Shown here one piece after another: positions 17,746 through 59,630 of a stretch of 64,000 bases of DNA. The translations under genes were made by a program, and so were the position numbers. The notes below the pieces were generated by a model. It had not been told where the DNA came from. It saw only the letters and a program-made list of their open reading frames with translations, and ran no database searches. Source of the stretch: a virus; the IMG/VR virus record IMGVR_UViG_3300024265_000039, positions 1-64,000 of that record. One strand, 5' to 3'. Numbering within the stretch: position 1 is the stretch's first letter; every line of letters starts with the position of its first letter.

Positions 17746-18483
17746 ATGCCAAGGCTGAACCAGATCATTGCAATCGAAAAGTATGCGAAAGGCCAGGCGG
17801 CCCGAGACTTCACCGACGCGCATCAGTTGCTACAGAAACCAGCGCTCCTTGCTGGTATCGCCCGCACCTATCGCCCGATTGATGATGATGGCGACCAGTT
17901 GCCACCGGAATCAACCCGTGTGCAAGTCAGGGCGGAGGAAGGCATTCAGGCGATTATCGTCATCATGACAAAGTTGTTTGATGTGACCGCAACCAAAGAC
18001 TGGGCCAACCAATCGGCGGCGGCTGATGTCGTGGTAGATGGGGATGTCATCGTGGAAAATGTTCCGGTCACCTATCTATTGTTCCTCGAAAAGCAACTGG
18101 TCGATTTGCATACGTTCATCAAGAAGTTGCCGGTGTTGGATGCTTCCGAAATCTGGAGCTTGGATTCCGCCCAAAACGTCTGGGCAACCGAACCGGTAGA
18201 AACCACCAAAACCAAGAAGCTGCTACGCAACCACGTTAAGTCTGAGGCGACGCCACAGCACCCGGCACAGGTGGACGTCTACACCGAAGATGTGGTTATC
18301 GGTCGCTGGCACACGGTTAAATATTCCGGTGCGATGCCCACCGCCCGTGTCGCTCTTCTGTTGGAACGGGTACGCAAACTACAGGAAGCGGTCAAGTTCG
18401 CCCGCGAGGAAGCCAACGGCGCTACGGTAGACCATCAAAAAGTCGGTGAACCAATTTTCACCTATCTTTTCGGAAAACAATAG
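17746..18483 (+). CDS. DUF7873-like phage protein
   Basis: A 245-residue protein. The stretch PRLNQIIAIEK, QKPALLAGIARTYRP, STRVQVRAEE, LFDVTATKDWAN, NVPVTYLLFLEKQL, DLHTFIKKLPVLD, KLLRNHVKSEAT and VKFAREEAN matches a widespread uncharacterised phage/actinobacterial family I know as DUF7873. Cytoplasmic, no catalytic motif evident. Strong AGGAGGA ribosome-binding site. The gene has its own upstream dyad and ends exactly where the tRNA-like region begins. Confidence 0.75.
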   Translation: MPRLNQIIAIEKYAKGQAARDFTDAHQLLQKPALLAGIARTYRPIDDDGDQLPPESTRVQVRAEEGIQAIIVIMTKLFDVTATKDWANQSAAADVVVDGDVIVENVPVTYLLFLEKQLVDLHTFIKKLPVLDASEIWSLDSAQNVWATEPVETTKTKKLLRNHVKSEATPQHPAQVDVYTEDVVIGRWHTVKYSGAMPTARVALLLERVRKLQEAVKFAREEANGATVDHQKVGEPIFTYLFGKQ

Positions 18484-18504
18484 GCTACAATGGTAGTTGA
18501 GTAC

Positions 18505-18610
18505 AAACTGAGGCTTAGTCTCAGATTGATGAACGGTCTTAAAGTGTAGGTTCGAATCCTGCCCTCGCCAAACGTGGCGGGGTAGCCCAACAGGTAGAGG
18601 CACCAGACCG
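18505..18610 (+). tRNA. tRNA-like element A, permuted order (3' half before 5' half)
   Basis: T-arm GTAGG-TTCGAAT-CCTGC (18546-18562), 3' acceptor strand CCTCGCC and discriminator A (18563-18570), a 5-nt linker, then 5' acceptor strand GGCGGGG (18576-18582), TA, and D-arm GCC-loop with GG-GGC (18585-18601). The two acceptor strands pair 7/7 with one G-U. CGGTCT (18534-18539) upstream pairs with AGACCG (18605-18610) where the anticodon stem should be. No normal anticodon loop can be drawn, and no CCA is encoded. No other 5' half fits this 3' half. Confidence 0.6.
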
Positions 18611-18683
18611 AACAACCAAGCTCAGATTCTTACTCAAGACTGAGCATCGCCGTTATCGTCAAATCGACTGTTCGGAAACAGAC

Positions 18684-18776
18684 ATTGCAAGATGTGAGTT
18701 CAACTCTCACCCGTTGCTCTTGATGTACATAACCTTTCTTATGCGACGGTAGCTTAACGATAGAGCGTGCGCTGAT
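18684..18776 (+). tRNA. tRNA-like element B, permuted order
   Basis: T-arm GTGAG-TTCAACT-CTCAC (18694-18710) and 3' acceptor CCGTTGC (18711-18717), a 25-nt linker, then 5' acceptor GCGACGG (18743-18749), TA, and D-arm GCTT-AACGATA-GAGC (18752-18766). Acceptor strands pair 7/7 with one G-U. TGCA (18686-18689) can pair with TGCG (18768-18771) as a weak anticodon stem. The anticodon is not identifiable. Confidence 0.6.
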
Positions 18777-18778
18777 TA

Positions 18779-18900
18779 GACTGATTTCCCAACTTAAATG
18801 CCGTTGGCGTGCAAAGAGACGGCAAGCGATAGTGATCGCTTAAAACGATCATAGCAAATAACCGTTCAGGGTAGGGTAACTCTGGGCGGTTTGCGTTATA
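18779..18900 (+). ncRNA. Hairpin-rich segment after the tRNA-like pair
   Basis: Three strong hairpins: GCCGT ... ACGGC near 18800-18823, AAGCGAT-agtg-ATCGCTT near 18824-18842, and a 13-bp stem AACCGTTCAGGGT/ACTCTGGGCGGTT (with wobbles) at about 18860-18892. No ORF. Could be part of the same transcript as the tRNA-like elements. Confidence 0.5.
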
Positions 18901-19146: not shown

Positions 19147-19482
19147 ATGAGGCTAAAACGCGGCGAAAAATGCGGGCGGTGTGGAACCAGGCTAGAAAGA
19201 ATGGCCGATGCAACCACATTTTGTTTGCGCTGTTGGAGGGCAAATAAAGAAATGCGCATGGCTAAATGGGAGGCAATCTATAAATGCCGTCTTTGTGGGC
19301 GGCGCTGGGTCGAAAATGACACCGATGATTATGATCTGGCTATAGATATAATAAAGAACATTATCGCTGCAACGCCTTCTATGTTATCTATTGTCGCACA
19401 CATATTTTGCCCGGATGGAAGCATAGGGATCGGTGATTTTCAGGGGATGCAGAGGTCGTCAAAAAAAGAACCCGGCGCATAA
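19147..19482 (+). CDS. Zinc-binding protein
   Basis: A 111-residue protein with CGRCGTRL, CLRCW and CRLCGRRW: a zinc ribbon plus a third Cys pair that could use CPDG further on. Last gene of the rightward early region; its final codons overlap the terminator stem. Function unknown. Confidence 0.55.
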   Translation: MRLKRGEKCGRCGTRLERMADATTFCLRCWRANKEMRMAKWEAIYKCRLCGRRWVENDTDDYDLAIDIIKNIIAATPSMLSIVAHIFCPDGSIGIGDFQGMQRSSKKEPGA

Positions 19483-19496
19483 GCCGGGTTCTTTTT
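19464..19496. terminator. Bidirectional terminator between convergent halves
   Basis: AAGAACCCGGC-gcataa-GCCGGGTTCTT with A-run before and T-run after, so it can terminate transcription from both directions. Confidence 0.85.
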
Positions 19497-56555: not shown

Positions 56556-59500
56556 TCAGTTTCCGCTCTCTTCTGGTTCATCGTCGAGCAGTGCCAGCAG
56601 GTCTTCGTCACCGGATTCTTTCAGGCGTTCTGCCCAGGCGACCAGCCCGTCTTCAGCCGTTTCCGGGACGGCAGTCGTTTCGGCCAGGTCTTGCCCGGCT
56701 TCATCAAATACGACATGTATGTCGCGTTTGTTCTCGACGGCTTTCAACCGTTCGCGTACCTGCAATTCAATAGCCAGGGGTAGCCGGGATACTTTGAAGG
56801 TGGCACCATCACGGGGGGCAATATCACCGGAGGGAATATCTGATTTGGCCGTCCCCCGCTTCATAGCAAATGCTCTCCATGATCTCAGTTCTTCTTTCGC
56901 GTTCGGTTGTACCGCTTCCTGTTTCCCTTGCTTCTTTTCGTGTTTGCGTTTCAAGTTTCGCAGTACCGGGTTCTCGATGAAGACCGTATGATCGTCAAAG
57001 TATCCGTCATTGATTGCCTCCATTGTGGCTTCCAGGATGTCGCCTGGGATGCCGGAGTCCATGGCTTCCTGCACTTCTTCTACCAGCACCTTCGGCAAAT
57101 TGCCGGGAATGTCTGAGGTGGCGTTCCAGTGGCGCATCTGCGCTCGTAGGAGGCGGCGGCGTGTTTCAGTTATCCGGGCGTAGGTTTCACGGGATTCCAG
57201 GGCATTGGCTGTATCGGGGTGGCCGTCTTTATCTGCGTCAGCCACTTCGATCACTCGTACCATCTGGTAATTGTCACGCCCGACTGTAATTGCATTGGGG
57301 GCAACAATCGCCTGAGTTTCCAAGTCGGGGATGGGTACTCCCCCGGAAACATAGGCCAACGTGATATGCGGCTTGTACTGCTCCGCCTGGCTGAAATATG
57401 AGGGTTTCACCTGTTCGACGCTTAAAGCCGTCCTCACGCGGCTCTGCAATGCCATCAGGGGAATATCAGGTTCTATTCGGAGCGTAATTGCCTGCAACCC
57501 TTCCGACGTTTGGAATGTCTGAACGCTATCAATCCGCAGACTTATACCTCTCCAATTCCCCGGCAGCAGATCAGCCACCCGCCCCAACGCATCATCGGAG
57601 CAATCTGGGGTATGTGCCAATGTACAGTGCCACAATTCCGGGGCGACCCAATGTACCCGCGACAACTGCTTCTCATCCACCGTACCGGCCAGCTTTGCTT
57701 TCAACTGGGCCGCGACCGTCTGGATCAACGAATCCTCGCCGATCCGTAGGGATATGTAGGCCGGTTGGGATTCCGACTCTGGGGGGCTGAATTTTTCCGG
57801 TTGCTTCTCTTCCACCTCCGTACTCTGCTCCCCTTCCTGAATGGCAGCCTGCGGTGACGATTCCAGCGCTGTCTTTTCCGGTTTTGCGGGGGGAGTAGGG
57901 GGAGGTGAACCATTAGGTGAGGGGTTTGGATTAGTAGCAGCCGTCACCGCGTCGGTACCATTCATTTTAGGAGCTTCCCCCAGCGCTTCAGTTTCGGTAC
58001 CCTCTGCCGATGTTTCCACCTTTGGCGGAGGGAGCGCAAGCGGGGAGGCTTGAGGTTGCCCACCTTGCGGCGGGGGGGCAGACGGGTCAGGGACCAATTC
58101 GTATTTGTATCCGTCCGGCTCATCACTTGGCAACTCCCCCAACAACCTACGGTATTCGTTTCGCTTGATAGCGCCTTCAGCCCAGGCTGTTCCCAGATGC
58201 TGCAACAGGTCGGGGCTGATGATCTTGTCATCACGCAAAATCCGCTCGACCGATTGGAAACGACCGTTAACCATCACGAAGTTAGCCAGAGGCTTGGTCT
58301 GCTCGATACCCAACCGCTCCTGCGTAGTTCCAAGGTCCTGAGCGCCACCCTGGAAGATTGACAATTCAGTTTCCGACCGGGATTGCCGCTCGACATCGAA
58401 TGCCCGGATATTCTTTTCGTCGATGACCAACCGTAACCCAGCTTCGTCGCCCAACCCCAGGCTGTCGTTAACAGCACTCAAGAAATGCCCCCCGACCGGC
58501 ACTACCGCATCAACATAGGCTTGCAGGATCAGATGCTTATGCCGGGCATTGTCGCTACCACTTTCAGGAGGAACGATCAAATCAGGGGCGATCTGGATGA
58601 CACTGGCTATTGCGTTCAGAGCTTCCCGGTTCAGTTCTGGAGCAGTCACCTTATCCGCCGTGACCCCCACATCCTGGACATTGAATTTACGGTCAAAGAA
58701 AGCAGCACGCGCAGTAAACTTGCCAAAGACGCCGCGCCAAAGTTGCTCGAAACGATTTTTGTGGCGTATCAAATCGACTTCAGTATAATGGGCCGGGTCT
58801 TCCTCTGATGGAGTGACCATCAACATGGGTAACGCCCCGCTCATGAAATAATGAGCGGCCCATCGCGCAATAGCTGCGTTGGTGACCGCGTTGTTAATTG
58901 CCAGGGATGCCATCGAAGTCGCCCGATTGCGATACCGGGGGTCATAATCATGCCAGTACACTACCTGTTGGGGGGAGAACATGTGGACCCCGCCACCAAT
59001 TTCTGCGTTGGGAACATAAAGATCAAATCCATGCACAACGTTGGTATAGGGGTCTTCACGCAATTCCCAATCGGAACGCAAAAGCAAGTTGAACCCAGAC
59101 ACCGCCCCATCAGTAAATTTCGAGATCGGGCGTCCGGTCGTACTGGCGAGTTTGGCCTTTAGGGTTTGGCGCTTGTATATCAGCACTTCACCGTGCAGTG
59201 CATAGGTGATATACAGTTCATATAGCATTCGGGGGGTGAATGCTCCCGCTAATCTGTTCAGCAAATGCGAATCCGGCAACTCGATCCATTGCCCTTGCTT
59301 CCGCACTTCTCCGATAATGGGAAGAGATGAGAACAGATTGGCTACACGCCGAATAGCTGAGAACAGATAGACGCTGGCGCGATACGCCCCTTCAATCTGG
59401 TCATCGCTATAATTGCCCTCCGTCGATCCCCCAGAGGTGATGAAGTCCTGGATATACTGGCTGTAAGGCGTGGATTTGTACGCCTGCTGCAAATCAGCTT

Positions 59501-59630
59501 TAACCGCAACATCATGCCTTGCGGCGGTTTGCCACGTCCTGGGGTTGGGGGCATAGCGCTGCGGGGTGAATTCAGCATGGGTCGGCGATCTGAACGGTTG
59601 CGACAAACTTTTAAATCCTGGCAGTTGCAT
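56556..59630 (-). CDS. Portal protein fused to a 2H phosphoesterase domain
   Basis: 1024 residues. Residues about 60-480 are a portal: TPYSQYIQDFITSGG, VANLFSSLPIIGEV, LLNRLAGAFTPRMLYELYIT, FVMVNGRFQSVERILRD. After a Pro/Glu/Ser-rich linker (about 490-610), residues about 620-790 show the LigT/2H fold with both HxT motifs: WHCTLAHTP and YKPHITLAYV. A charged helical tail follows. 2H enzymes hydrolyse 2',5' or cyclic phosphodiesters, including defence-signalling nucleotides. Other portals with such an enzyme are not known to me. Confidence 0.85.
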   Translation of the reverse strand: MQLPGFKSLSQPFRSPTHAEFTPQRYAPNPRTWQTAARHDVAVKADLQQAYKSTPYSQYIQDFITSGGSTEGNYSDDQIEGAYRASVYLFSAIRRVANLFSSLPIIGEVRKQGQWIELPDSHLLNRLAGAFTPRMLYELYITYALHGEVLIYKRQTLKAKLASTTGRPISKFTDGAVSGFNLLLRSDWELREDPYTNVVHGFDLYVPNAEIGGGVHMFSPQQVVYWHDYDPRYRNRATSMASLAINNAVTNAAIARWAAHYFMSGALPMLMVTPSEEDPAHYTEVDLIRHKNRFEQLWRGVFGKFTARAAFFDRKFNVQDVGVTADKVTAPELNREALNAIASVIQIAPDLIVPPESGSDNARHKHLILQAYVDAVVPVGGHFLSAVNDSLGLGDEAGLRLVIDEKNIRAFDVERQSRSETELSIFQGGAQDLGTTQERLGIEQTKPLANFVMVNGRFQSVERILRDDKIISPDLLQHLGTAWAEGAIKRNEYRRLLGELPSDEPDGYKYELVPDPSAPPPQGGQPQASPLALPPPKVETSAEGTETEALGEAPKMNGTDAVTAATNPNPSPNGSPPPTPPAKPEKTALESSPQAAIQEGEQSTEVEEKQPEKFSPPESESQPAYISLRIGEDSLIQTVAAQLKAKLAGTVDEKQLSRVHWVAPELWHCTLAHTPDCSDDALGRVADLLPGNWRGISLRIDSVQTFQTSEGLQAITLRIEPDIPLMALQSRVRTALSVEQVKPSYFSQAEQYKPHITLAYVSGGVPIPDLETQAIVAPNAITVGRDNYQMVRVIEVADADKDGHPDTANALESRETYARITETRRRLLRAQMRHWNATSDIPGNLPKVLVEEVQEAMDSGIPGDILEATMEAINDGYFDDHTVFIENPVLRNLKRKHEKKQGKQEAVQPNAKEELRSWRAFAMKRGTAKSDIPSGDIAPRDGATFKVSRLPLAIELQVRERLKAVENKRDIHVVFDEAGQDLAETTAVPETAEDGLVAWAERLKESGDEDLLALLDDEPEESGN

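Follow-up and report, generated by a model that had tools for sequence, protein, structure and literature searches.

A predicted tandem RNA with permuted tRNA-like heads adjoining DUF7873 genes in phages and bacteria

Two tRNA-like heads downstream of a DUF7873 gene

The window analysed here is a stretch of 64,000 nucleotides (nt), positions 1-64,000 of the IMG/VR virus record IMGVR_UViG_3300024265_000039, and belongs to a virus contig with a full length of 86,108 bases, whose proteins include phage capsid, portal-like and ERF-type proteins. A gene of the DUF7873 family (PF25283; Pfam E 7.5e-109) occupies positions 17746-18483 on the plus strand, on which all the features of the locus described below also lie, and encodes a product of 245 amino acids. 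Directly downstream of its stop begins a predicted RNA of ~400 nt, for which DUF7873 is the proposed protein partner and whose approximate limits (18485-18897) were drawn from the conserved helices and a 3' stem. Two heads resembling transfer RNA (tRNA) follow one another within this RNA, at 18546-18601 and 18694-18766, both running in the order T-arm, 3' acceptor strand, linker, 5' acceptor strand and D-arm. An initial annotation, made from the letters of the stretch, had read them as two consecutive tRNA-like elements in circularly permuted order, a description borne out by the covariance models presented below.

In head 1 (element A) the T-arm (GTAGG TTCGAAT CCTGC, 18546-18562) is followed by the 3' acceptor strand CCTCGCC (18563-18569), a linker, the 5' acceptor strand GGCGGGG (18576-18582), the dinucleotide TA and the D-arm GCCCAACAGGTAGAGGC (18585-18601), the latter recognised by a module descriptor and by covariance model R1. 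Head 2 (element B), delimited by covariance model R2, comprises the T-arm GTGAG TTCAACT CTCAC (18694-18710), the 3' acceptor strand CCGTTGC (18711-18717), a linker of 25 nt, the 5' acceptor strand GCGACGG (18743-18749) and the D-arm GCTTAACGATAGAGC (18752-18766). Acceptor strands pair 7/7 inside each element, with one G-U apiece, whereas pairs crossed between the elements reach only 4/7 and 3/7, in agreement with the complete pairing and the failing neighbour pairings initially annotated. The helix CGGTCT/AGACCG, which had been placed at the anticodon-stem position of element A, was likewise recovered, with its 3' strand at 18534-18539 and its 5' strand at 18605-18610, and it covaries in bacterial relatives. 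ARAGORN reported no tRNA in the window, where the best linear tRNA match scored 20.8 bits against a gathering threshold of 29, and we agree with the initial annotation that no normal anticodon loop is visible. No family of Rfam 15 was matched at its gathering threshold at the RNA, and the transfer-messenger RNA (tmRNA) model RF00023 had no match in the window. A linear tRNA with an intron was also considered and rejected, as the acceptors mismatch and ARAGORN was negative.

Further helices were sought in 58 non-redundant loci, unselected on the columns concerned, by scanning every possible pair of columns. Two helices, P2 and P3, emerged from the scan and link the core separating the two heads with the sequence 3' of head 2; their own-locus duplexes beat foreign-locus ones in 98% of loci. 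The 5' strand of P2 (CGTCAA, 18657-18662) pairs 6/6, with one G-U, with 18804-18809, and among the 58 relatives 93% of cells appeared paired versus 71% after shuffling, with double changes at every pair. For P3, whose 5' strand GTTCGGAAA (18670-18678) pairs 8/9 with 18785-18793, the corresponding values were 87% and 52%, with double changes at 9/9 pairs. Between the two 3' strands, in the P2/P3 internal loop of the segment 18785-18809, lies the motif TTAAAYG (18794-18800), which is present in 62/75 relatives. Around head 1 a third helix, P1, forms by 6/6 pairing of TGAGTA (18498-18503) with 18631-18636; it showed 72% paired cells versus 64% shuffled and double changes at all 6 pairs. A basal stem closing the tRNA-like module is therefore present in both cases, formed by P1 for head 1 and by P2 and P3 for head 2. 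Since these helices covary besides the heads, the RNA is, as judged from sequence comparison, built of two tandem stem-plus-tRNA-like-head units.

Head 1 is flanked on both sides by hexamers of the pattern ANNNTN, mostly ARRYTN, which are kept in phages and bacteria. Array 1 (AAACTG AGGCTT AGTCTC AGATTG) extends over 18505-18528, and at least three consecutive ANNNTN units occur there in 61% of relatives versus 0.5% after shuffling; array 2 (AAGCTC AGATTC TTACTCA AGACTG AGCATC, 18618-18648) contains the 3' strand of P1. Apart from P1, pairing between the two arrays amounts to weak, locus-specific complementarity. The arrays could perhaps represent a protein-binding repeat. A coding origin, suggested by alternating K/R and L/F/I codons, was rejected upon inspection because of 1-nt phase changes in many relatives and inconsistent starts. 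The 5/7/5 hairpin at 18508-18524, proposed earlier as a displaced anticodon arm, does exist in the window, but it lies within the hexamer array and relatives do not retain it as a hairpin, so that the proposed role is not supported. Downstream, a 12-bp stem-loop at 18860-18891 with a poor U tract marks the probable end of the RNA.

Conservation and covariation beside DUF7873

Homologues of DUF7873 were found in 73 phage records, 325 viral-contig stretches and at least 493 genome stretches. The phage records include phages of Gordonia, Rhodococcus, Arthrobacter, Rhizobium, Vibrio and Klebsiella/Serratia together with cyanobacterial phages, while the best 80 of the at least 493 genome stretches derive mostly from Streptomyces and other actinobacteria and also take in Chloroflexi, deltaproteobacteria, one cyanobacterium and one Armatimonadetes contig. 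Annotated phage records usually show a gap 3' of DUF7873, and these gaps hold modules in the swapped order, two of them in many cases. A strict descriptor of the module, which demands acceptor pairing, was searched up to 1200 nt downstream of DUF7873 and detected at least one module in 80 of the 92 loci comprising the window and the phage and viral loci, at least two modules in 42, and at least one in 74/80 genome loci. The same descriptor gave zero modules in 20 dinucleotide shuffles per related region and zero on the reverse strand, which argues against a chance origin of the elements; its background upstream of DUF7873 was ~0.02 modules per locus.

Because the descriptor itself requires acceptor pairing, the test was repeated with anchors confined to the T-arm and the D-arm. 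With these acceptor-blind anchors, 41/41 distinct acceptor combinations paired at 6/7 or better, against a mean of 21% when strands were swapped between loci, as expected from the compensating acceptor changes that the initial annotation had predicted for related phages. Bacterial alignments displayed double-sided changes at 15/21 and 19/22 pairs, in modules that had been selected for pairing. The tandem RNA has a folding z-score of -4.0, and free minimum-free-energy (MFE) folding forms the two acceptor stems in 66/75 and 67/75 relatives. The covariance models R1 and R2 were built from bacterial chromosomal loci only, with no phage sequence included, and nevertheless matched element A (R1, 72.3 bits, E 1.3e-19) and element B (R2, 45.9 bits, E 3.8e-12) in the phage window.

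The RNA is linked to DUF7873. R1 matches of at least 30 bits adjoin DUF7873 in 70/79 viral loci. In a sample of 101 Streptomycetaceae genomes, 64 of which carry DUF7873, there were 52 R1 matches of at least 65 bits, every one of them just downstream of DUF7873, and in a phylum-wide sample of 150 genomes DUF7873 and the RNA were detected in the identical three. Two viral loci depart from the usual arrangement, the RNA lying upstream of DUF7873 in one (L094:2659-2886) and on the opposite strand in the other (L073:4999-5237, minus strand). Other structured RNAs were noted in the vicinity of DUF7873 in two phages. Gordonia phage Phendrix shows a tmRNA match of 89 bits, above gathering (L004:1072-1600), in the same tRNA-rich region as its DUF7873 RNA; in Microcoleus phage My-WqHQDG a HEARO RNA (129 bits, L009:3950-4159) lies downstream of DUF7873, and the tandem module was not found there.

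The DUF7873 protein was modelled with AlphaFold from 66 sequences at a predicted local distance difference test (pLDDT) score of 95 and a predicted template-modelling score (pTM) of 0.73, while a single-sequence prediction gave a pLDDT of 34. A profile search against PDB sequences returned nothing credible, and NCBIfam, PHROGs and PADLOC contained no match. Neighbour clustering over 80 bacterial loci, which gathered mostly spurious high-GC frames, revealed no recurrent neighbour gene beside DUF7873. Downstream of the RNA, the window itself encodes a small protein that matches the zf-FPG_IleRS zinc finger (19147-19482), after which a strong terminator-like hairpin lies near 19461-19496. Elsewhere, the C-terminal part of the portal-like protein (56559-59630, minus strand) matches the 2'-5' RNA ligase/LigT phosphoesterase superfamily.

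Relation to Y RNAs and Ro60

Under permissive thresholds, YrlA (RF02553) was the top Rfam family for both elements. The Rfam model of YrlA runs in the order T-arm, acceptor, loop, acceptor and D-arm; what looks like a permutation is thus the normal order of the YrlA module, and the tRNA-like module of YrlA and bacterial Y RNAs, with its permuted T-arm, acceptor and D-arm, is present here. R1 also matches a Y RNA in a Streptomyces genome devoid of DUF7873 (locus L176), in which two Y-RNA modules adjoin a gene with a TROVE match that reads as a Ro60-type protein. Three R1 matches of 50-61 bits located away from DUF7873 were inspected: one is this Ro60-linked Y RNA and the other two are tandem tRNA clusters (L175 and L177). 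Four matches of this strength away from DUF7873 have a TROVE match at most ~1.5 kb away.

In Streptomycetaceae, DUF7873 and Ro60 show a positive association, yet DUF7873 often occurs without Ro60. TROVE was detected in 57/101 genomes, that is, in 43/64 with DUF7873 and 14/37 without (Fisher p 0.006), a co-occurrence that is possibly a genome-size effect, and 21/64 DUF7873-positive genomes lacked TROVE. Among 50 viral records carrying DUF7873, some of which are fragments, TROVE was not found in 43, and across the 86-kb record of the window no TROVE/Ro60 gene was found. In one Streptomycetaceae genome (L180, G052:C4:4559500-4566500) a TROVE match lies ~2.4 kb from DUF7873. As both the Ro60 linkage and a score above the Rfam threshold are missing, we do not class the RNA as a member of YrlA.

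A candidate ribonucleoprotein, its alternatives and known systems

The sequences show how the RNA is built and that it covaries, is conserved in phages and bacteria, is linked to DUF7873 and has heads like the tRNA-like modules of Y RNAs. From these features we infer that the locus probably encodes a Ro60-independent, Y-RNA-like ribonucleoprotein (RNP) made of DUF7873 and the ~400-nt RNA of two tandem units. Each unit is a covarying basal stem bearing a tRNA-like head whose anticodon-position helix runs on into that stem, an arrangement that makes the halves look swapped in the gene. DUF7873, whose RNA binding is suggested by linkage, may bind the stems or the hexamer arrays and keep the RNA within an RNP, in the manner of Ro60 with Y RNAs. 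The heads might be recognised by host tRNA-handling enzymes, such as modification enzymes, RNase P, the CCA-adding enzyme or exonucleases like PNPase, which the RNP would thereby recruit, occupy or divert; in a phage, its target would then be the RNA or tRNA metabolism of the host. The fallback reading of the initial annotation, that the elements are tRNA mimics, is the one favoured by the evidence.

Several observations weigh against this explanation. The YrlA scores of the two elements, 27.0 and 22.6 bits, are far under the gathering threshold of 69, and free MFE folding of the window sequence alone yields neither acceptor stem. The predicted fold of DUF7873 resembled no solved or viral structure at E <=0.001, so that no RNA-binding protein was matched, and the charge of the protein is near neutral (29 K+R versus 33 D+E), although 11 basic positions are conserved.

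Processing at the linkers deserves to be weighed alongside, since T-arm, acceptor and CCA are the parts of a tRNA that RNase P recognises. The units could be permuted precursors whose linkers are cut by host RNase P and 3' processing enzymes; the resulting pieces would carry CCA at their 3' ends and stay associated through base pairing, and the product could be CCA-tailed or aminoacylated. The linker indeed opens with a discriminator and CCA in 37/75 relatives at head 1 and 27/75 at head 2, compared with 4.4 and 2.0 in within-linker shuffles. On the other hand, at least half of the relatives lack CCA, as do both heads of the window (AAACGT at head 1 and TCTTGATG... at head 2), linker lengths range from 4 to 47 nt among the loci listed with no conserved cleavage element seen, and the window holds no match to the tmRNA model. 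Moreover, CCA need not mean processing, because the linker of the Ro60-linked Y RNA in L176 (ACCACAC) also contains it. We regard such precursors as unlikely, and find slightly less likely still that the RNA of the proposed RNP is itself cut at the acceptor linkers, which would give a multi-piece tRNA-like particle whose CCA-bearing ends engage the CCA-adding enzyme, RNase P or the translation machinery of the host. About as improbable as the precursors is a decoy function, in which the heads would shield tRNAs by baiting tRNA-targeting nucleases or toxins, or would titrate these, as an anti-defence device of phages and a means of self-protection in bacteria. Large tRNA-rich phages commonly carry the locus, and a comparable role of YrlA as a competitive inhibitor acting against an anticodon nuclease has been proposed (PMC7790460); anticodon nucleases, however, would not be baited by heads that have no anticodon loop, the locus is common in bacterial chromosomes too, and a search of defence families gave no match.

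The swapped halves, the complementary acceptors and the helix at the anticodon-stem position would also suit circularly permuted tRNA genes that give mature tRNAs through bulge-helix-bulge (BHB) splicing, as in algae and archaea, and precursors needing splicing had been among the initial suggestions. Against them stand the missing anticodon loop, the negative ARAGORN result and the continuation of the 'anticodon' helix into the covarying helices P1-P3 and the hexamer arrays: joining the halves restores no anticodon arm, as no tRNA was found and the helix enters conserved non-tRNA stems. The known cases further need a BHB splicing endonuclease, an enzyme that, to our knowledge, bacteria lack, and we hold this origin to be very improbable. 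Hardly credible at all is a product of chance or of ordinary tandem tRNAs, the 3' half of one preceding the 5' half of the next, even if DUF7873 phages often have tRNA arrays adjoining the locus and genuine tandem tRNAs score weaker R1 matches. Acceptor strands of independent tRNAs would not pair together and covary as those of these neighbours do, which already contradicts that reading, in bacteria, strong matches adjoin DUF7873 where no tRNA genes lie close by (L099), and the E-value of the R1 match in the window speaks against remnants as well.

Phages have been known to carry a tRNA-mimic module before, because phage Y RNAs with the YrlA tRNA-like module have been reported, according to a paper that cites them (PMC7765460), and the statement of the initial annotation that no phage example was described does not stand for the module. 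The DUF7873-linked tandem form, the DUF7873 partnership and the bacterial breadth are not described in the literature searched, which did not include key Y-RNA reviews, so an earlier mention is possible; DUF7873 itself is unmentioned in the literature searched. A DUF7873-based RNP would suggest that there is a second family of tRNA-mimicking RNPs, independent of Ro60 and widespread among actinobacteria, with further members in Chloroflexi, deltaproteobacteria, cyanobacteria and numerous phages. Such an RNP would give a protein of unknown function a concrete, testable role, the binding of its neighbouring RNA, and would present the tRNA-like head of Y RNAs as a portable part that is combined with different proteins. 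The locus is also a warning that tRNA finders and Rfam overlook RNAs of this kind.

Among known systems, the two-piece tmRNAs from permuted genes, whose pieces are joined by base pairing, share with the tandem RNA a 3' acceptor half that precedes the 5' half, and CCA in the linkers of many relatives. They differ in that the RNA described here has two heads, no match to the tmRNA model in the window and no sign of a tag reading frame, no consistent frame being seen upon inspection and the hexamer arrays shifting phase by 1 nt. Circularly permuted tRNA genes, which rely on the BHB splicing endonuclease and are known from algae and one archaeon (PMC3978253), likewise place a 3' half, an intervening sequence and a 5' half in succession with a matching acceptor stem, but here neither an anticodon loop nor a sign of splicing was seen.

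The closest parallels are found among Y RNAs. The tRNA-like domain of YrlA is modified by DusA and TruB, while its basal stem binds Rsr, and YrlA connects Rsr to PNPase (PMC8394870); the structure of Salmonella YrlA is PDB 6CU1, as cited by the same paper. YrlA-type Y RNAs occur in bacteria and phages, as the tandem RNA does, and have in common with it a permuted tRNA-like head, a loop-closed acceptor stem and an anticodon-position helix running into a basal stem. Unlike YrlA, the RNA described here carries two heads ~90 nt apart, hexamer arrays and the TTAAAYG internal loop, scores far under the Rfam gathering threshold and is linked to DUF7873 instead of Ro60/Rsr. The Streptomyces Y RNAs of L176 differ by their Ro60-type partner, recognised by TROVE, by a spacing of ~240 nt between modules and by a genome without DUF7873, but they too consist of two permuted modules in tandem beside one protein gene, upstream of it in that case, and one of these modules is matched by R1 at ~53 bits.
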